DNA from: a virus
DNA length: 21,983 bases
Reading direction: 5' to 3' (one strand)
IMG/VR virus record: IMGVR_UViG_3300023178_000300
Location: 1-21,983 of that record
Shown here: piece after piece, positions 2,345-10,267 of the stretch
Position numbering within the stretch: position 1 is the first letter of the stretch
How the letters are laid out: every line of letters begins with the position of its first letter
Notes under the pieces: generated by a model
The model's input: only the letters and a program-made list of their open reading frames with translations
Told to the model about the DNA's origin: nothing
Database searches by the model: none
Translations under genes and position numbers: made by a program

Positions 2345-2375
2345 TATTTATATCATATCTTCAGTTAGAAGTCAA
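2345..2375 (-). promoter_or_regulatory. Composite promoter (TTGACT, 17 bases, TATAAATA) for the phasin-like pair
   Basis: On the minus strand TTGACT (2370-2375) is followed by exactly 17 bases and TATAAA (2347-2352). The TATAAA is part of a perfect T4 late octamer TATAAATA (2345-2352). The TGA in the -35 hexamer is also the stop codon of the PiT-like permease gene. It lies about 70 bases before the first phasin-like ATG. Confidence 0.7.
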
Positions 2376-3334
2376 GGATTAATAATATAATGAACAAATA
2401 AAACCAATGCGACTGATGCTCCAAGTCCTACCATCATTTTACCAAAATCCTTTGCAACCAATGGGAATACAGATTTGGTTTTCTTTTTACCGAAGTATGT
2501 TGCCATTGCAAGTTCACGTCCTGCAAGTAGACCAACGAAGACCCATGTTGTCGACATGGGAATATCATTCAGTTCCTTGAAGAAGTACAAACACAACCAA
2601 TAGAACAAGTCAATCAATGTCGCTGAACGAACATATCGTGTGTTGTGTTTCTCTAAAACAATTTGTTGAATCTTACCCCCACGTTCTCTGAACATGAAGA
2701 ACAGTCCTGCAACAAATACAAATGAAATGAGTATCATCAGATCTACTGGGACTTGACGTGGTAAGAACACTGCGATGTTTGCCATGTCATGTGACAACCA
2801 AGTCCACCACAATCCACCTGTTGCAACCCACTGAGCAATTAGCCAGAACTTTTTATTGCCCTCACTAACTGGTTGGGTTTCGTCGAACCATTTGTGTGCA
2901 AACTTATTGATTGCAAACCACACCGCATAAGCAAAGGCGGCGGCAACACCATATCCCATAATTGATTTCATCAACATTTTCTCCAACACAAATGTCGAAG
3001 CGAATACAGATAATACTAGGAAGGATGTTGATACTGGGACACCGATACGAGTAAGTGCAACTAGAATTGCAGGTGCTGCAGCGTGATACCACTGAACTTC
3101 TTGCCATGGTATCTTGTTTAGACGACCATATGAGATGTCGCCTCCGTTGACACTCCAACCATACCAGAGTGTCGCAAGTAGAACTGCCGAGGCGGCAATC
3201 CAAAGTGTTTTATAGTTAAATCTCTCATTATTTGATGCCATCCAAGTACCGAGAGTTTGTACTGAATCATTGGCAATGACCGCATACGCAGCCAGTAGGA
3301 ACCCAACAAGGCTCCATAAAGTTAGTAGTTCCAT
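2372..3334 (-). CDS. PiT-family-like phosphate permease (320 aa, multi-pass membrane)
   Basis: This is an integral membrane protein with about eight to ten hydrophobic segments. Two half-repeats carry the PiT (inorganic phosphate transporter) signatures. In the first half, AND at residues 21-23 (VIANDSVQTLGTW) pairs with GVPVSTS (99-105). In the second half, LSHDMANIAVF (180-190) pairs with DIPMSTTWVFVGLLAGREL (257-275). In cellular PiT proteins the paired (G/H)AND and PVSTT motifs of inverted repeats form the phosphate and cation site. At 320 aa it is shorter than typical bacterial PiT (about 400-500 aa), and the second motif has HDMAN for HGANDVAN, so transport is likely but not certain. 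The start ATG 3334 has GGAG upstream. It lies between Hsp20 and the phasin pair. It would be an auxiliary metabolic gene supporting phosphate supply during infection (inference). Confidence 0.72.
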   Translation of the reverse strand: MELLTLWSLVGFLLAAYAVIANDSVQTLGTWMASNNERFNYKTLWIAASAVLLATLWYGWSVNGGDISYGRLNKIPWQEVQWYHAAAPAILVALTRIGVPVSTSFLVLSVFASTFVLEKMLMKSIMGYGVAAAFAYAVWFAINKFAHKWFDETQPVSEGNKKFWLIAQWVATGGLWWTWLSHDMANIAVFLPRQVPVDLMILISFVFVAGLFFMFRERGGKIQQIVLEKHNTRYVRSATLIDLFYWLCLYFFKELNDIPMSTTWVFVGLLAGRELAMATYFGKKKTKSVFPLVAKDFGKMMVGLGASVALVLFVHYIINP

Positions 3335-3893: not shown

Positions 3894-3927
3894 AGCGTTA
3901 TCTCCTTTTAAAGCAAGATTAAAGTAA

Positions 3928-3952
3928 ATGCGAACCCTTTCGGCGTTCGCAT
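3928..3952 (-). ncRNA. 5' stem-loop of the hsp20 mRNA leader
   Basis: ATGCGAAC (3928-3935) pairs with GTTCGCAT (3945-3952); two further C-G pairs with one bulge close a GAAA loop on the minus-strand RNA. Because the -10 ends at 3956, the predicted transcript would begin at or inside this stem. A 5'-terminal hairpin of this kind can protect an mRNA from decay (inference). It does not cover the ribosome site. Confidence 0.5.
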
Positions 3953-3953
3953 C

Positions 3954-3984
3954 TATTTATAACACATTTTCTGCCAAATGTCAA
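3954..3984 (-). promoter_or_regulatory. Composite promoter (TTGACA, 17 bases, TATAAATA) for hsp20
   Basis: On the minus strand a perfect -35 TTGACA (3979-3984) is followed by a 17-base spacer and TATAAA (3956-3961). The latter lies inside a perfect T4 late octamer TATAAATA (3954-3961). An A-rich stretch (the end of regA) lies directly upstream and could act as an UP element. Confidence 0.82.
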
Positions 3985-3991
3985 TAATTTT

Positions 3992-4393
3992 TTATTTTCT
4001 ACCGATATTATATTTTACGGTCAAGTCCCAATCACCTTTTTCTTTATACGAAATGATTTTAATGTGATTTAGAGGAGCGACAGGGTCTTTGGTTTTTTCC
4101 TTGTCGATGATCCTAATAAGATCCCATTCCTCTAATAGATTGACAATTGTGTTTCTTCTCGACAAGTCTTCGTCTGTGAATGTGTTTGTCTTACCGTCGA
4201 GGATGAATAATTCTTTGAAGTGTAAAATGGAATACCTACCCTTCTTGTGCAAAATATGACAAGATTGGTACAGCCTTTTTTCCTTGCGTGATGAAATACC
4301 GATACGAGTTAGTGTCTCTTTTACTTTTAAAAAACTGTCATCGGAAGGTAGTTCAATCTCTACACCAACGCCCTTAAAAATATCTTCGTTCAT
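3992..4393 (-). CDS. regA: RegA translational repressor (133 aa)
   Basis: This is a T4 RegA homologue, an RNA-binding protein that represses translation of many early phage mRNAs, including clamp and clamp-loader genes and its own, by binding near the start codon. The match is close: FLKVKETLTRIGIS, LYQSCHILHKKGRY, ILHFKELFILDGK, DEDLSRRNTIVNLLEEWDLI, and a C-terminal KIISYKEKGDWDLTVKYNIG. The 133 residues are slightly longer than T4 RegA because of a few extra N-terminal residues. It follows gp62, as in T4, but with an 85-base gap holding two hairpins, which may be where its own expression is controlled. ATG 4393 has an AGGTGAAC ribosome site; an out-of-frame ATG lies just upstream. Confidence 0.95.
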   Translation of the reverse strand: MNEDIFKGVGVEIELPSDDSFLKVKETLTRIGISSRKEKRLYQSCHILHKKGRYSILHFKELFILDGKTNTFTDEDLSRRNTIVNLLEEWDLIRIIDKEKTKDPVAPLNHIKIISYKEKGDWDLTVKYNIGRK

Positions 4394-4435
4394 AATACAT
4401 GTTCACCTTTTTTATAATTTATTTGTTATGGGTGG

Positions 4436-4453
4436 TGTTGATCATTATCAACA
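4436..4453 (-). repeat. Hairpin in the regA leader (7-bp stem)
   Basis: TGTTGAT (4436-4442) and ATCAACA (4447-4453) are exact reverse complements around four bases. The hairpin lies between gp62 and regA, about 45 bases before the regA start. Confidence 0.6.
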
Positions 4454-4454
4454 A

Positions 4455-4480
4455 AAGTTATTTATTATTTTAAATAACTT
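4455..4480 (-). repeat. AT-only hairpin overlapping the gp62 stop (10-bp stem)
   Basis: AAGTTATTTA (4455-4464) and TAAATAACTT (4471-4480) are perfect reverse complements around TTATTT, spanning the gp62 stop codon. The unit AAATAACTT is repeated once more in the gp62 coding end (about 4491-4499). Confidence 0.65.
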
Positions 4481-4880
4481 AACCCCCTACAAATAACTTC
4501 TGGTGAACATCTTCTAGTTGATCTTTACTAAGAACTTTCAAGTATTGTTTTGCAACGGTACGATTGCATTGATAGACTTCTTGGATTGCATCAAGGTCAT
4601 CATTCTGTTCTGCCTTGTGCCATTTAGAGAACCGTTTACGTTTCCTCAACATACCATTATAGTAGTCAAAGGAACCTATAGGAAACATGTCTGGTCTCTG
4701 GTTCATTTCGTTTGCATGAAGAATAGTATCTTCAAAGTAAGAGAAACCACGGTTGATAATGTACATGTACTCACCGTATTCTTTCTCTGCCATTTCTGGA
4801 TTGTCGTTCCCACGAATGATATCTTTCTTAAACTCAGATACTGCATTCATGAAATCAAAAGGTGTGTGTTCCTTAGCCAT
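4479..4880 (-). CDS. 62: Sliding-clamp loader small subunit gp62 (133 aa)
   Basis: This is the small subunit of the phage clamp loader, which with gp44 opens the gp45 ring and places it on primer-template DNA. It is non-ATPase and diverged in sequence. Family features visible are the central INRGFSYFEDTILHANEMNQ helix pair, the YYNGMLRKRKRFSKWHKAEQ basic segment (compare GKRYGKWAK in T4 gp62), and the C-terminal helical part ending LEDVHQKLFVGG. It is shorter than T4 gp62 (187 aa) but similar to the short forms in marine T4-like phages. It lies just before regA, as in T4, but four genes separate it from gp44. The start ATG overlaps the stop of the 95-aa gene (TAATG), so translation is coupled. 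Confidence 0.85.
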   Translation of the reverse strand: MAKEHTPFDFMNAVSEFKKDIIRGNDNPEMAEKEYGEYMYIINRGFSYFEDTILHANEMNQRPDMFPIGSFDYYNGMLRKRKRFSKWHKAEQNDDLDAIQEVYQCNRTVAKQYLKVLSKDQLEDVHQKLFVGG

Positions 4881-5167
4881 TAATCAAAATCCACATCTTG
4901 TCCCCAATGTTCCATGCGGTCATCTTCTTCTCTCATTCTACGACCCATGTAGTCGTGATATGATTCACGTTGTTCGGGTTTTTCTTCGTCGTAATCTGAA
5001 ACAACACTCAGATAACTTTCATATGGAATAGTATAACCGCATCCACGCAAAAAGTCAACAAAAGATTCTAGTACTTCATCAAGATTGGCATCATCAGGCA
5101 CTGTGTATTCAATCGTAGCACCCTCTTCACCAAAGAGATTATTATGGGTTTCAATAAATTTCATCAT
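4880..5167 (-). CDS. Conserved-type phage protein of unknown function (95 aa)
   Basis: I do not recognise a characterised family. It is a strongly acidic protein with a predicted alpha/beta start (FIETHNNLF, ATIEYTVPDDANLDEVLESF), a hydrophobic motif FLRGCGYTIPYESYLSVV and an acidic, Arg/Glu-rich tail (MGRRMREEDDRMEHWGQDVD). The FLRGCGY.IPY segment has the look of small proteins found in marine T4-like phages. The start is ATG 5167 or 5164, behind GAAGG. It overlaps the zinc-ribbon gene by 17 bases upstream and abuts gp62 with a TAATG overlap. The position in the clamp-loader operon suggests early expression. Confidence 0.7.
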   Translation of the reverse strand: MMKFIETHNNLFGEEGATIEYTVPDDANLDEVLESFVDFLRGCGYTIPYESYLSVVSDYDEEKPEQRESYHDYMGRRMREEDDRMEHWGQDVDFD

Positions 5168-5351
5168 TCTTTACCTTCTCTATCTCTATTAATACTTCAT
5201 TTAAATCTTTACCGCATTGTTTACATGCAGTAACTTCATGTGGACCATCTGCAGTTTGTAACTTTACTTTGAAGAGGTTTGCTTTATCGACTTTCTCACC
5301 ACAATAGAAACATGTGTGTTTCTTGATCAGTCGTTTCATCCATTCACTCAT
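5151..5351 (-). CDS. Small zinc-ribbon protein (66 aa)
   Basis: Two CxxC knuckles, CFYC (residues 14-17) and CKQC (43-46), about 25 residues apart and separated by beta-prone sequence (NLFKVKLQTADGPHEVTA), form a treble-clef or zinc-ribbon type metal site. The N-terminus is basic (MKRLIKKH) and the C-terminus is a charged helix (LNEVLIEIEKVKN). No catalytic motif is visible; such proteins commonly act in nucleic acid or protein binding. It starts at a TAATG overlap with the nuclease-like gene and runs 17 bases into the next gene. The specific function is unknown. Confidence 0.72.
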   Translation of the reverse strand: MSEWMKRLIKKHTCFYCGEKVDKANLFKVKLQTADGPHEVTACKQCGKDLNEVLIEIEKVKNDEIY

Positions 5352-5851
5352 TAGATCCTCAATTCTTTCACTGCTTTAAGTGGGATGTTTCTGAACATCT
5401 CACCTTCCGAAATTTCTTTATTGGGACTATGTTTGAGTTTGCACCTTAGAATGTTTTTACTATCAACCAACAAAACTCTGTTGCACAAGTCGTTCAATTG
5501 AACATAGAAGAGTTTACAATTACTTGATAATGGGAAGGGAATACTGTTTGTAAATTCTTCGCCTTGTTTCCATAGACGATCTTTTCTTTCTGGACAGTGT
5601 ACTGTGTCAAAATAAAATGATCTATCACCCTTCCATGCTAACCTAACTTCAATTTCCCAACATATAGTTACTTCGTCTTTTTCATTCAAAGTCAGTAGAT
5701 CTATCCCATATCGATTAGGGTTTTCTATTGTTCGAAGGTTTGAATTATGAGATCGAAGATGTCGGTTTATAAATTCAAGTGCCGCATCCTTGCCTGGTTT
5801 ATCAGTTTTATTGTGTAAACTTGGATCAAAAGTTTTGTACTTCCCCTGCAT
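5351..5851 (-). CDS. PD-(D/E)xK nuclease-like protein of unknown function (166 aa)
   Basis: No named family was recognised. An N-terminal helix (GKDAALEFINRHLRSH) is followed by RYGIDLLTLNEKDEV and ICWEIEVR. The order helix, G-I-D51 at the start of a strand, then E66-x-E68 on the next strand matches the layout of restriction-endonuclease-like (PD-(D/E)xK) folds. The usual Lys is replaced (E68 or R70), so catalysis is unproven. A Cys/His/Trp-rich middle (HCPERKDRLWKQGEEF) follows. It starts one base after the stop of the membrane-anchored Cys-His-Asp protein, and its stop overlaps the zinc-ribbon start. It is not part of the T4 core between 44 and 62, so it is an insertion with its neighbour. 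Confidence 0.65.
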   Translation of the reverse strand: MQGKYKTFDPSLHNKTDKPGKDAALEFINRHLRSHNSNLRTIENPNRYGIDLLTLNEKDEVTICWEIEVRLAWKGDRSFYFDTVHCPERKDRLWKQGEEFTNSIPFPLSSNCKLFYVQLNDLCNRVLLVDSKNILRCKLKHSPNKEISEGEMFRNIPLKAVKELRI

Positions 5852-5852
5852 T

Positions 5853-6593
5853 CTAATTATACCAATCTAACCAGACCTTGGCAACAACGTTAACCAAAGC
5901 AAACATACTTAACCCAATACCAATAATATTCAATGCCTTTAGAGACTTCATTTCTTCAAAGATTTTCTTATCAGTAGAGATTCTTTCAAGTATACTAATT
6001 TGATGGAGTTGTGGGATCCCTACTCCATCTTTCTTTTCTTGATAAATGTAACCCCATCCTTGAAAGTCAATTTTAGACAGAACTTTATCACCTTCGTTTA
6101 CAGCTTTATCAATTATACATTGGAAATCGCCAGGCAACCTATGAGCAATTGATAAATCAACTATCATAGGAATTTCAGTATCTGTCACAACAACTACATG
6201 AGTAGAAACCTGAGTGTGGCTATTTTGTTGAAAGGTTGTGTTGAACCCAACCATGTAATGTCTATCATTTATATGATCTACAGCACTAAGTTGAACTTCC
6301 ATCAAGTGAGACTTGATACCGTTTTGATTAAGTATATTGAAAAGAATGTCACTTACACTAATGCAGTAACCCTCTCCCATTTTACCAATCCCAGACTCAA
6401 TAAGTCTTTCAACGATTTCTTTTACTTTTTTATAGTCTTCAGTTGCGGGTAGGACATCACTAGTTGTAATAATAAATCCACCCGATCTTGCAGATGAACT
6501 AAAGTTATTATTGTAAGTTACGGTAATAGGTTTGGTTTTTATGTTATTACCAACCCAATTATTTGGTGCAACATTGGGTTTAGACTCCCACAT
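5853..6593 (-). CDS. Transglutaminase/papain-like protein with C-terminal membrane segment (246 aa)
   Basis: No named family was recognised. A Cys-His-Asp arrangement typical of transglutaminase-like enzymes is visible: GEGYCISVSDILFNILNQNG (Cys77 at the start of a helix), STHVVVVTD (His132 on a strand) and PMIVDLSIA (Asp146 on the next strand). The spacing suits that fold. The N-terminal 45 residues are Asn/Ser/Thr-rich and probably disordered. The C-terminal LNIIGIGLSMFALVNVVAKV (221-240) is a single membrane span followed by WLDWYN, predicting a tail-anchored protein with the enzyme in the cytoplasm. It starts one base after the gp44 stop and ends one base before the nuclease-like gene. 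A role in protein processing, attack on the host or interference with other phages is speculative. Confidence 0.6.
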   Translation of the reverse strand: MWESKPNVAPNNWVGNNIKTKPITVTYNNNFSSSARSGGFIITTSDVLPATEDYKKVKEIVERLIESGIGKMGEGYCISVSDILFNILNQNGIKSHLMEVQLSAVDHINDRHYMVGFNTTFQQNSHTQVSTHVVVVTDTEIPMIVDLSIAHRLPGDFQCIIDKAVNEGDKVLSKIDFQGWGYIYQEKKDGVGIPQLHQISILERISTDKKIFEEMKSLKALNIIGIGLSMFALVNVVAKVWLDWYN

Positions 6594-6594
6594 C

Positions 6595-7548
6595 TCATTT
6601 ATACTCCGATTCGATCATCACTTCAGTTAAGAATGCAACAAGGTTAATCTCCTGATCTGCAACGAACGCAGACTTGTACATGTAGTCTGCAGTCGTCACA
6701 CAGAAGCCAGGGAGACTACGAAACTCAACATATTTATCTGCAGAGTCGTAAATTCGACGGAACATTTCGTTCATATCTTGATCAGAGTTCTTTGCCACCC
6801 ACTTGCGCATTTCAGTAAAGTTCTTTGTCTTCAACATATGAAACACTTCGTCAATAGACTCTTGTTTCAGATTAATGAAGATTCCCTCATCAATAGAACC
6901 AGACGCTGCATAGGACTGCAGTTCTGTTAATACTCGACGGAAGTCTGGGAAGTATTTCTGTACGACTTTAGCGATAACACCTTTGTCATATGTAACACCT
7001 TCGTTGTCAAGAATTGCAAGTACACGTTTGTAGAACGCACCCGCAAGTGCAGGTTTCTCTTCATTGTCAATAGAGAAGTCAATCTCAGATAGACGTGAAC
7101 GCAGAGGTGAGATAATACGGTTCTTGAAGTTACACGTAAAGATGAAACCACAGTTAGAAGAGTATTCTTCGATGAAGTTACGCAATGCAGGTTGAACATT
7201 CGCTGCATTCAAATAGTCTGCTTCATCAAAGATAACATACTTGCGACCACCTGTCAGTGATACTGCAGATGCGAATGTAGAGATGTCGTAACGGATAGAG
7301 TCAATGTTTACGTTAAGAGATCCGTTCTTAACGATGTAGTCACAACCTAGTTCTTCTAACATAGCTTTCGCAATCGTAGTCTTACCTACGCCTGGTCCAC
7401 CTGATAGAAGTAAGTTGGGAATGTTTTCATCAGAGACAAACTTCGCAAACATCTTGCGAGTGTCTTCTGGTAGGATCGTGTCAGAGATTTTGTTTGGACG
7501 GTACTTCTCAACCCAAAGTACTTCGTTTGATTTTGCATCAATAGTCAT
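6595..7548 (-). CDS. 44: Clamp loader ATPase gp44 (317 aa)
   Basis: This is the large AAA+ subunit of the phage clamp loader. ATP-driven gp44/gp62 loads the gp45 ring at the replication fork. The motifs are plain: N-terminal VLWVEKYRPNKISD, Walker A SGGPGVGKTT, Walker B YVIFDEADYL, sensor region FIFTCNFKNRI and the SRLSEIDF arginine-finger segment. A helical collar domain (DFRRVLTELQSYAASGS and on) makes up the C-terminal third. The length matches T4 gp44 (319 aa). The start ATG 7548 has a GGTGAACT site. A terminator-like hairpin separates it from the upstream gp45 unit, while downstream genes follow with 1-base gaps or overlaps. Confidence 0.96.
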   Translation of the reverse strand: MTIDAKSNEVLWVEKYRPNKISDTILPEDTRKMFAKFVSDENIPNLLLSGGPGVGKTTIAKAMLEELGCDYIVKNGSLNVNIDSIRYDISTFASAVSLTGGRKYVIFDEADYLNAANVQPALRNFIEEYSSNCGFIFTCNFKNRIISPLRSRLSEIDFSIDNEEKPALAGAFYKRVLAILDNEGVTYDKGVIAKVVQKYFPDFRRVLTELQSYAASGSIDEGIFINLKQESIDEVFHMLKTKNFTEMRKWVAKNSDQDMNEMFRRIYDSADKYVEFRSLPGFCVTTADYMYKSAFVADQEINLVAFLTEVMIESEYK

Positions 7549-7570
7549 AGTTCACCACAATCATAATATA

Positions 7571-7606
7571 AAAGAAAAGATCAAAGGGGCGAGTTTCCCC
7601 GCCCCT
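7571..7606 (-). terminator. Terminator or attenuator between the gp45 unit and gp44
   Basis: On the minus strand AGGGGCG (7600-7606) pairs with CGCCCCT (7585-7591) around an 8-base loop, followed by a T-rich but interrupted tract (TTTGATCTTTTCTTTT). It stands 12 bases after the stop of the 87-aa gene and 37 bases before the gp44 start. The broken T-run suggests partial termination that would set a higher level of gp45 than of gp44/gp62. Confidence 0.7.
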
Positions 7607-7618
7607 CTAGCACAGTAT

Positions 7619-7882
7619 TTACTGTACTTTGTCTGCTAGTTCACCTGTAAGTGGTTCTGCAGGTGCTTCGATGTCTGCTTCTGCAGCCATTGCACCTTCA
7701 GGTGGTTGAGGTGCACGTTGGTTAACGTATGCAACCAGTTTGTTGCGTAGGGTCCCTACTCCTGCGAGTTCTTGACCCTCGAAACCGCCACGGCGTGATA
7801 CCGCATCGATAACGTTTACGACAGTAGAAATATCTGCCAGTGTAAGTTGGACTTGTTGCTGTCCTTGCATTTGATCATTCAT
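7619..7882 (-). CDS. Conserved small protein between gp45 and gp44 (87 aa)
   Basis: I know no function for it. The protein has a Gln-rich start (MNDQMQGQQQVQLTLADIST), a helical core (VVNVIDAVSRRGGFEGQELA, then GVGTLRNKLVAYVNQ) and an acidic Pro/Ala-rich tail. Similar small proteins with a Q-rich start and an iDAasrRG-F-g-EL core occur next to the sliding clamp in marine T4-like phages. It starts 6 bases after the gp45 stop with the ribosome site inside the clamp coding end, and the attenuator hairpin follows it. It would therefore be made together with the abundant clamp protein, possibly as a partner of it (inference). Confidence 0.8.
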   Translation of the reverse strand: MNDQMQGQQQVQLTLADISTVVNVIDAVSRRGGFEGQELAGVGTLRNKLVAYVNQRAPQPPEGAMAAEADIEAPAEPLTGELADKVQ

Positions 7883-8583: not shown

Positions 8584-9372
8584 CTATACTATACCCCAAA
8601 ACTCATCTTTTGTCAAGTCTTTTCTTCTAATCCGTTGATTATATTTTATAGACTCTTCAATCAAAGAAAAACTTGTCTCGTATTGTTTTGCGGTATGCAA
8701 TAGTGCTTGTGTGTCTTTGGGGAAGCAGTGACCACCCCAACCACGTTCATTAGTAACATAACTATGATCATCTCCAATTCTTTCATCAAGACAAAGATGA
8801 TATCTAACTTCTCCAAAGTCAATATCTGTAGCTTCACAGAAATCATAAAGTTGATTGAAGAAACTTACCTTCAATGCAAGGAAGGCATTCTCTGCATACT
8901 TGACTGCAATTGCTTCTTCATTCGTACAGTGATGAATACGAATTCTTTTGAAACGTTTTGTAAACAAATTAGACCAAAAACTATCTGGTGTATCGTTACC
9001 AATAATCATATATTTTTGTTTCAGAAAATCTTCAGTTGCCGTGTCTGCACGAAGGAACTCAGGACTGAAAGAAATGTGTTTATCTGGGAAAGCGGTTTGT
9101 AAATGTTCCCACCCCTCTAAACTAATCGTAGACTTTATAAGGATAGGAACATCTGGTGCACTATCAATTACCTCGTGCACGTTGTTTATATCACACGCAC
9201 CTGTCTTGTGTTGGGGGGTTGAAACACAAACAATCACACCATCTGTATCTTGACTAATTGGGTAGTTCCATTCCCGATACTGAGGATCTACGATCTCATA
9301 GTCAACCGTTTTGTTAAGTGCGCCAACAACAGCTTTACCAACAAAACCATAACCAGCTACTGTAATTTTCAT
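8584..9372 (-). CDS. UDP-glucose/GDP-mannose dehydrogenase family protein, short form (262 aa)
   Basis: This is an NAD-dependent nucleotide-sugar dehydrogenase, the family that oxidises the C6 alcohol of UDP-glucose or GDP-mannose to a uronic acid. It has a Rossmann motif VAGYGFVGKAV (5-15), CVSTPQ, the PEFLRADTA loop (104-112), a central helix VKYAENAFLALKVSFFNQ with the usual Lys and Asn, and the catalytic cysteine in GWGGHCFPKD (Cys216). It stops at 262 aa, lacking most of the C-terminal substrate-binding domain found in cellular enzymes (about 390-450 aa); the reading frame ends cleanly, so the gene is short, not visibly broken. It lies with cytidylyltransferase and glycosyltransferase genes in the same transcription block. 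The start overlaps the preceding gene by 4 bases (ATGA). Confidence 0.88.
   Translation of the reverse strand: MKITVAGYGFVGKAVVGALNKTVDYEIVDPQYREWNYPISQDTDGVIVCVSTPQHKTGACDINNVHEVIDSAPDVPILIKSTISLEGWEHLQTAFPDKHISFSPEFLRADTATEDFLKQKYMIIGNDTPDSFWSNLFTKRFKRIRIHHCTNEEAIAVKYAENAFLALKVSFFNQLYDFCEATDIDFGEVRYHLCLDERIGDDHSYVTNERGWGGHCFPKDTQALLHTAKQYETSFSLIEESIKYNQRIRRKDLTKDEFWGIV
8588..8616 (-). promoter_or_regulatory. 45: Sigma70-type promoter for the gp45 operon (TTGACA, 17, TATAGT)
   Basis: On the minus strand TTGACA (8611-8616), exactly 17 bases, then TATAGT (8588-8593). It lies within the last codons of the dehydrogenase gene, about 37 bases before the gp45 start, so the transcript leader would be about 30 bases. 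Confidence 0.85.
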
Positions 9373-9687: not shown

Positions 9688-9857
9688 CAGTTATTCTCCA
9701 ACAACCAAACACATTCACTGATATCTTCTGGAGACTCATAGATTTTAGAACACCTAGAGTATGGATGCGTATGGTATCCTGCATAATATGATCCATAACA
9801 TAATAATCCAACTATTGCAAAGAGTAGTATATTAAACACAATTATATTCCACGTCAT
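9687..9857 (-). CDS. Small single-span membrane protein (56 aa)
   Basis: The ORF starts at ATG 9857, overlapping the cytidylyltransferase stop by 4 bases (ATGA). Residues 3-24 (WNIIVFNILLFAIVGLLCYG) form one hydrophobic span, followed by YYAGYHTHPYSRCSK and an acidic end ending CVWLLENN. Two further cysteines (near residues 36 and 49) may form a disulfide if that end is periplasmic. The next ORF begins in its stop codon. The function is unknown; holin-like or spanin-like roles cannot be claimed from this. Confidence 0.6.
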   Translation of the reverse strand: MTWNIIVFNILLFAIVGLLCYGSYYAGYHTHPYSRCSKIYESPEDISECVWLLENN

Positions 9858-10267
9858 TTCATTTTCTCCAATACTCTATTCCTCAGATCAGAGGAAGAGA
9901 AGCGATGATCACGTTTGTTGAAATAAAGCTGGATACCTCGCTTCTTACAAATATCCTTGCCCGTAAAATCCTTTTCACGGTACTCTTCACCAAGGATCCT
10001 AACATCGATTTGATACATGGATAGTATATCATCTAAATCCGACTCTGTCAAGTACGGAATGATTTCGTCTACATAAGAAACTGCCTTTAACTGAGTGTAT
10101 CTTTCTACAACTGTTTGTATTGGAGAATTCTTTTCTTTACGATCATAAGAGGGATCCATCTGCAATCCACAGATCAAATAATCACATTGTTCTTTCGCTT
10201 CACGCAACATCTGAATATGTCCTGCATGAAGTAAATCAAACGCACTGCATGTAAACCCTACTTTCAT
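9854..10267 (-). CDS. Cytidylyltransferase-like nucleotidyltransferase (137 aa)
   Basis: The protein belongs to the nucleotidyltransferase superfamily with the HxGH signature (FDLLHAGHIQML; His14 and His17) and an SSSDLRNRV segment in place of the ISTT motif. The closest match by length and layout is glycerol-3-phosphate cytidylyltransferase (TagD/GCT) and related CDP-sugar/alcohol enzymes, which transfer CMP from CTP to a sugar or polyol phosphate. An ERYTQLKAVSYVDEIIPY stretch fits the usual core. I start it at ATG 10267, which overlaps the preceding stop (ATGA); the extended version to 10285 runs into the upstream gene without its own ribosome site. With the dehydrogenase and glycosyltransferase it suggests a sugar-modification pathway. 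Confidence 0.85.
   Translation of the reverse strand: MKVGFTCSAFDLLHAGHIQMLREAKEQCDYLICGLQMDPSYDRKEKNSPIQTVVERYTQLKAVSYVDEIIPYLTESDLDDILSMYQIDVRILGEEYREKDFTGKDICKKRGIQLYFNKRDHRFSSSDLRNRVLEKMK

Follow-up and report, generated by a model that had tools for sequence, protein, structure and literature searches.

The window, by which we mean the whole stretch of 21,983 nucleotides, is an IMG/VR virus record from a marine T4-like phage. On the minus strand its genes run in the order gp45, a small ORF, gp44, ORF246, ORF166, ORF66, ORF95, gp62, and RegA. The clamp-loader large subunit gp44 (6595..7548, minus strand) is identified by phrog_168 at E = 1.5e-108 and by Pfam Gp44_lid, and the clamp-loader small subunit gp62 (4479..4880, minus strand) by phrog_225 at E = 1.5e-30 and by Pfam Phage_clamp_A. 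The two are the upstream and downstream anchors of a variable interval, and RegA is encoded at 3992-4393 on the same strand.

The genes between the anchors are all on the minus strand. ORF246 (5853..6593) is predicted to be papain-/transglutaminase-like, with a candidate triad Cys77-His132-Asp146 and a C-terminal hydrophobic segment resembling a tail anchor. ORF166 (5351..5851) is a predicted PD-(D/E)xK nuclease with D51, E66, E68, [K/R]70, W73, R89, and K90 as its marked residues. ORF66 (5151..5351), small and zinc-ribbon-like (CxxC...CxxC), is what this interval usually holds, and ORF95 (4880..5167; phrog_935, E = 2.3e-5) is a small protein of unknown function with similar ORFs in contigs L009, L010, L011, and L025. 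One base separates gp44 from ORF246 and one base separates ORF246 from ORF166, and ORF166 overlaps ORF66 by 1 base. The preliminary description had placed four genes between gp44 and gp62, the two larger ones with 1-base gaps; its coordinates are correct, and three other IMG/VR contigs with the identical arrangement rule out an artefact of assembly. Of these, L003 differs from the window by few substitutions across the interval, with 3 synonymous and 2 nonsynonymous in ORF246 and 6 and 0 in the compared part of gp44. The GC contents of ORF246 (34.5%) and ORF166 (35.5%), compared to a mean of 38.8% (sd 3.4), are inside the range of the other genes and therefore give no evidence of recent foreign origin. 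An Rfam search of window positions 3900-7700 had no match.

Other minus-strand genes of the window deserve a mention. Sugar-nucleotide genes occur in the replication region near gp45, one for a UDP-glucose/GDP-mannose dehydrogenase-like protein (8584-9372; central domain E = 5e-27) and one for a cytidylyltransferase-like protein (9854-10267). A small protein at 1400-1645 has a DUF1127 domain (PF06568, E = 8e-11), a domain known mainly from bacteria; several relatives have similar ORFs, and in L185 one that looks alike is near an ORF166 homologue. The 320-aa multi-pass membrane-like protein at 2372-3334 looks by eye like a phosphate permease, but that identification was dropped as Pfam, PHROGs, and the PDB gave no match. 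Two small ORFs at 1842-2066 and 2063-2275 have no Pfam or PHROGs match, and the first has 75-81% identity to ORFs in L096, L105, and L107.

The gp44-gp62 interval among relatives

A set of 80 gp44-bearing IMG/VR loci was fetched, and the interval is readable in 78. Most of these intervals have a length of ~150-400 bases and hold 1-2 small ORFs. The zinc-ribbon ORF66 has a tblastn match in 56 of the 78, and since it is the usual resident, gp44 and gp62 stay separated in this clade also where ORF246 and ORF166 are missing. The cultured relatives Melnitz and DLP6 have a single small ORF at this place. ORF246 is present in 3/78 intervals (those of the window's twin contig, L027, and L046) and absent from the other 75, and ORF166 is present in 1/78; the closest relative by gp44, L009 at 90% identity, has neither. 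The expectation that the insert would be found in some phages only is thus borne out: ORF246 and ORF166 are carried by a minority of relatives, and the interval is variable in content.

Intervals exceeding 700 bases number 9 of the 78, and their contents, read by eye, are varied. Besides the three with ORF246 relatives, L036 and L040 have small ORFs, L072 an 846-aa protein with DNA-methylase-like motifs, L075 three metabolic-looking ORFs, L076 a region poor in ORFs, and L085 an HNH-like ORF. The L072 ORF (6147-8687) has its DNA-methylase-like ends (DPPYG and DPFMGSGSTGKAA) around a ~300-aa segment, possibly an intein. Genome plasticity of this kind is general among T4 relatives (PMC2993671), and in these marine T4-like phages accessory genes dock in the gap between gp44 and gp62.

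ORF246, a predicted papain-like enzyme with a hydrophobic tail

The preliminary description had proposed a transglutaminase-like triad for ORF246 and three acidic residues (D51, E66, E68) for ORF166, so all six had been picked out without knowledge of homologues. In 13 ORF246-family sequences with identities of 25-70%, Cys77 (codon 6363..6365, minus strand), His132 (6198..6200, minus strand), and Asp146 (6156..6158, minus strand) are invariant, among 16 invariant columns of 246. Also invariant are G75, S81, D82, E99, G116, V134, and I149, and further along Y184, H197, I201, R204, and D208. If columns were interchangeable, the chance that all three named columns are invariant would be ~2e-4 for each protein, a rough figure, given that Cys, His, and Asp are often conserved in any case.

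The AlphaFold2 (AF2) model from the 13 sequences has a mean pLDDT of 69, with core blocks at ~80-90 and some loops lower, and is unreliable for the N-terminal 36 residues and for 120-129. In it, Cys77 begins helix 77-90, His132 is within strand 129-137, and Asp146 ends strand 143-146. The papain-like core is defined by a Cys at a helix N-terminus, a His on strand 2, and a polar residue on strand 3 (PMC10318531). Foldseek against the PDB places first the SseI catalytic domain (probability 1.00, E = 6.4e-3), and also returns the C-terminal thiol-protease-like region of the Pasteurella toxin PMT (0.98), APC5867 (0.72), Mycobacterium smegmatis NAT (0.51), and several cathepsin B entries at low probability, with unrelated folds interspersed, query-normalised TM-scores of ~0.3, and a best E of 6e-3. 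SseI and the Pasteurella toxin domain are included in cluster III of the papain-like superfamily, along with N-acetyltransferases, deamidases, and transglutaminases (PMC10318531). Against viral models, Foldseek finds an uncharacterised phage protein at E = 4e-5 and two annotated giant-virus acetyltransferases. That phage protein, BFVD A0A6J5PMM7, is the best structural match of ORF246 at 12% identity, and is possibly another branch of ORF246-like enzymes.

Taken at model level, ORF246 probably has a papain-like fold, and the fold matches slightly favor deamidase or acyltransferase chemistry over proteolysis; possibly, it acts as a deamidase. The resemblance to SseI and PMT is one of fold only, and gives no hint of a toxin acting on people or animals. 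Searches of ORF246 and its relatives against Pfam, PHROGs, NCBIfam, and PADLOC gave nothing beyond chance, a profile search of PDB sequences had no match, and Pfam Transglut_core PF01841 had none in ORF246, its relatives, or the whole window record. Literature searches turned up no report of this insert or of the ORF246 family. No library searched here has a name for the ORF246 family, which is new within a known superfamily and stands out by its unusual membrane tail, without being categorically new.

That tail is the hydrophobic segment at residues ~220-238 (ALNIIGIGLSMFALVNVVA; 5880..5936, minus strand), a C-terminal span already marked in the preliminary description, with a Kyte-Doolittle mean of 2.05 over 19 residues. 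In 13/13 relatives hydropathy over 19 residues peaks in the C-terminal part, at 2.0-2.4 in the near clade and 1.5-1.9 in the distant clade. With the lower values of distant members (1.5-1.6 for L005, L190, and L191), the anchor may not be ancestral. ORF246 is probably fixed to a membrane by this segment, as judged from its sequence. Near-clade members have 3-4 Lys/Arg before the segment and 0-1 after it. The positive-inside rule relates such a charge bias to the cytoplasmic side, and so favors a catalytic domain in the cytoplasm.

Among cultured phages, tblastn finds one ORF246 homologue, in Synechococcus phage DSL-LC03 at 30% identity, and in IMG/VR, profile searches bring up roughly a dozen distinct relatives. 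These are directly behind gp44 in five lineages (the window, L046/L094, L095, L096, and L027/L105). In L097-L103 and L108, they adjoin on the opposite strand a capsid-gene-like ORF of ~440 aa that we take to be gp23, and in L109, L190, L191, and L195 they are among glycosyltransferase-like and other genes. With three kinds of site, the function is not tied to the clamp loader. The distant relatives at L190 4004-4675 and L191 4010-4681, in phage contigs of 155-160 kb, are surrounded by sulfotransferase-, glycosyltransferase-, and methyltransferase-like genes, and in those records gp44 is far away, ~115 kb in the case of L190. On a gp44 tree whose set includes loci fetched by ORF246 itself, presence at the site takes five changes, each nested among empty-site relatives. 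The ORF246 tree does not reject a single origin of the gp44-site copies (p-AU 0.376), hence both one gain followed by many losses or exchange and several gains fit. The ORF246 dN of 0.22 with saturated dS indicates purifying selection. Scans by tblastn of bacterial and archaeal genomes found no member of the ORF246 or ORF166 family, and plasmids scanned for ORF246 had none.

If ORF246 instead faced the periplasm, it could modify peptidoglycan, capsule, or a receptor, and serve superinfection exclusion or lysis. The papain-like enzymes do include cell-wall amidases (PMC10318531), and the distant relatives in L190, L191, and L109 are near glycosyltransferase-like genes. However, by hydropathy there is no N-terminal hydrophobic segment of the signal-peptide kind, the charge bias favors a cytoplasmic N-side, and the fold matches are deamidase- and NAT-like instead of NlpC/P60 or CHAP. 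An outward-facing role is accordingly improbable.

ORF166, a predicted PD-(D/E)xK nuclease

In 22 sequences of the ORF166 family, 11 of 166 alignment columns are invariant: F8, D17, D51, E66, E68, W73, P87, R89, K90, E151, and F153. The D51/E66/E68 pattern is thereby kept as first proposed, although its motif is better read as D51...E68-V-[K/R]70. Position 70 is Lys or Arg across the family, with Arg in the window and Lys the usual motif residue. The AF2 model has a pLDDT of 89.1 and a pTM of 0.83, and Foldseek matches it to SPARDA nuclease chains, D212, DpnI, Hjc, BstEII, EcoRV, and others, the majority of the top matches being PD-(D/E)xK proteins. The modeled structure has a restriction-endonuclease-like fold, and ORF166 is a predicted PD-(D/E)xK DNA nuclease of replication type. 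The resemblance of the model to Hjc and D212 suggests a resolvase-like role. At the level of sequence profiles, the relative in L112 scores E = 3e-5 and 24.7 bits (cut-off 25) against PF24579 PDDEXK_14. A profile search of PDB sequences gave a weak match to Hjc 1gef at E = 0.46 that was not reproduced with a larger alignment.

By tblastn, ORF166 has homologues in 19 records of roseobacter-type phages at 22-33% identity, and a profile scan yields 199 IMG/VR stretches. The gene adjoins PhoH and glutaredoxin in SIO1/ICBM-type phages and ribonucleotide reductase (RNR) in CRP-212, and the IMG/VR loci adjoin, by eye, RNR-like, primase-like, and polymerase-like ORFs. Such neighborhoods suggest that ORF166 works in phage DNA metabolism.

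A different account would have ORF166 act as a homing or marker-exclusion endonuclease of the free-standing type: by cutting an empty gp44-gp62 site, it would have let the cassette enter by recombination, with ORF246 as a hitch-hiker. T4 relatives commonly carry free-standing homing endonucleases, and these mediate spread into intercistronic regions (PMC2993671); the single ORF166 among 78 intervals and the HNH-like ORF of L085 also speak for this account. Unlike a homing gene, however, the ORF166 family is found repeatedly in one kind of neighborhood (RNR, PhoH, glutaredoxin), and ORF246 is at the site without ORF166 in four other lineages. We regard homing as an unlikely origin of the insert.

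Separate cargo and its relation to known systems

A membrane enzyme and a nuclease, 1 base apart in the window and in three other contigs, could form a functional two-gene defense or anti-defense module in which one senses or activates the other, and the preliminary description had seen such logic in the pair. The wider distribution speaks against it. ORF166 was undetected in 9/9 other ORF246-bearing records searched, although absence in a fragment is weak evidence for each record; ORF246 is at the 44-62 site without ORF166 in L046, L027, L095, and L096; and relatives of ORF166 are found in podoviruses and other phages with no ORF246 nearby. PADLOC models had no match at E <= 1 for ORF246, ORF166, or the relatives tested. 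With no pairing and no PADLOC match, the module reading is rejected as very improbable and the genes are treated as separate cargo. Adjacent genes should not be called a module unless they are shown to travel together. Least probable of all is that the insert proteins are structural or regulatory replisome parts, such as clamp-loader accessories, for despite ORF246 being within the clamp-loader operon in five lineages and 1 base from gp44, it is missing from 75 of 78 intervals, has relatives far from gp44, and has a tail-anchor-like segment.

We therefore prefer, with a probability of about 0.55, the reading that the gp44-gp62 gap is a cargo spot, that ORF246 is a host-directed papain-like membrane enzyme, and that ORF166 is an independent DNA nuclease, both activities being predicted. 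ORF246 and ORF166 seem to be separate passengers of this variable site, not two parts of one weapon. Two unrelated accessory genes would thus occupy a variable cargo spot within an essential replication operon, and their close spacing suggests that they would be co-transcribed with gp44 and made during replication. In ORF246, Cys77 would be the nucleophile, with His132 and Asp146 completing the triad, and the enzyme would belong to the deamidase/transglutaminase/N-acetyltransferase group. With the tail anchored in the host inner membrane and the catalytic domain in the cytoplasm, the thiol would attack a carbonyl group in a membrane-proximal protein of the host (or phage). The reaction may be deamidation, cleavage, or acyl transfer on that protein, most likely one of the host. 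ORF166, working independently of ORF246, would nick or cut DNA, likely branched intermediates of phage replication and recombination, or host DNA.

A bolder and rather doubtful extension is that ORF246 founds a family of tail-anchored papain-like phage effectors that disable a membrane-associated host protein and have spread among marine T4-like phages by docking behind essential genes, gp44 and the capsid gene being examples. As an example of a target for such effectors, one might tentatively name a membrane-bound antiviral sensor or defense protein, disabled by deamidation, cleavage, or acylation. Accessory genes at sites of this kind often target the host or its defenses, and as a possible host-directed effector ORF246 is of interest. 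From this work emerges a phage enzyme family that has no name yet and is recognizable by its conserved predicted Cys-His-Asp site and membrane-anchor-like tail; it occurs in several phage groups, and its members are concrete candidates for screening.

Among known proteins, the only annotated phage homologue of ORF246 that we found is WJZ48036.1 of Synechococcus phage DSL-LC03. It keeps the triad, but has a longer C-terminus with a weaker hydrophobic segment, and its gene, unlike ORF246, lies between nucleotide-metabolism and sugar genes. With cluster III of the papain-like superfamily, ORF246 shares the Cys at a helix N-terminus followed by His and Asp on successive strands. It differs in having no profile match to the named families, and in its additional C-terminal membrane-anchor-like segment with a preceding conserved H197...S200-I201...R204...D208 motif.

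For ORF166, the nearest named family is PF24579 PDDEXK_14, a phage putative PDDEXK endonuclease, matched by the relative in L112 and not by ORF166 itself. Its homologues in SIO1, ICBM1-3, the CRP phages, and P12053L are hypothetical proteins encoded by PhoH/glutaredoxin or RNR, and they keep D51, E66, and E68 where aligned. SIO1 and the ICBM phages are Zobellviridae, and so of other phage groups than the window; there the gene is in a replication/nucleotide operon, with no ORF246 seen alongside. Archaeal Hjc resolvases, SSV D212, DpnI, and the SPARDA nuclease resemble ORF166 in the modeled fold and in a D...ExK-type core. Identity to these nucleases is 7-19%, Arg replaces the Lys in the window, and the ORF166 family adds to their core the invariant residues W73, R89, and K90.
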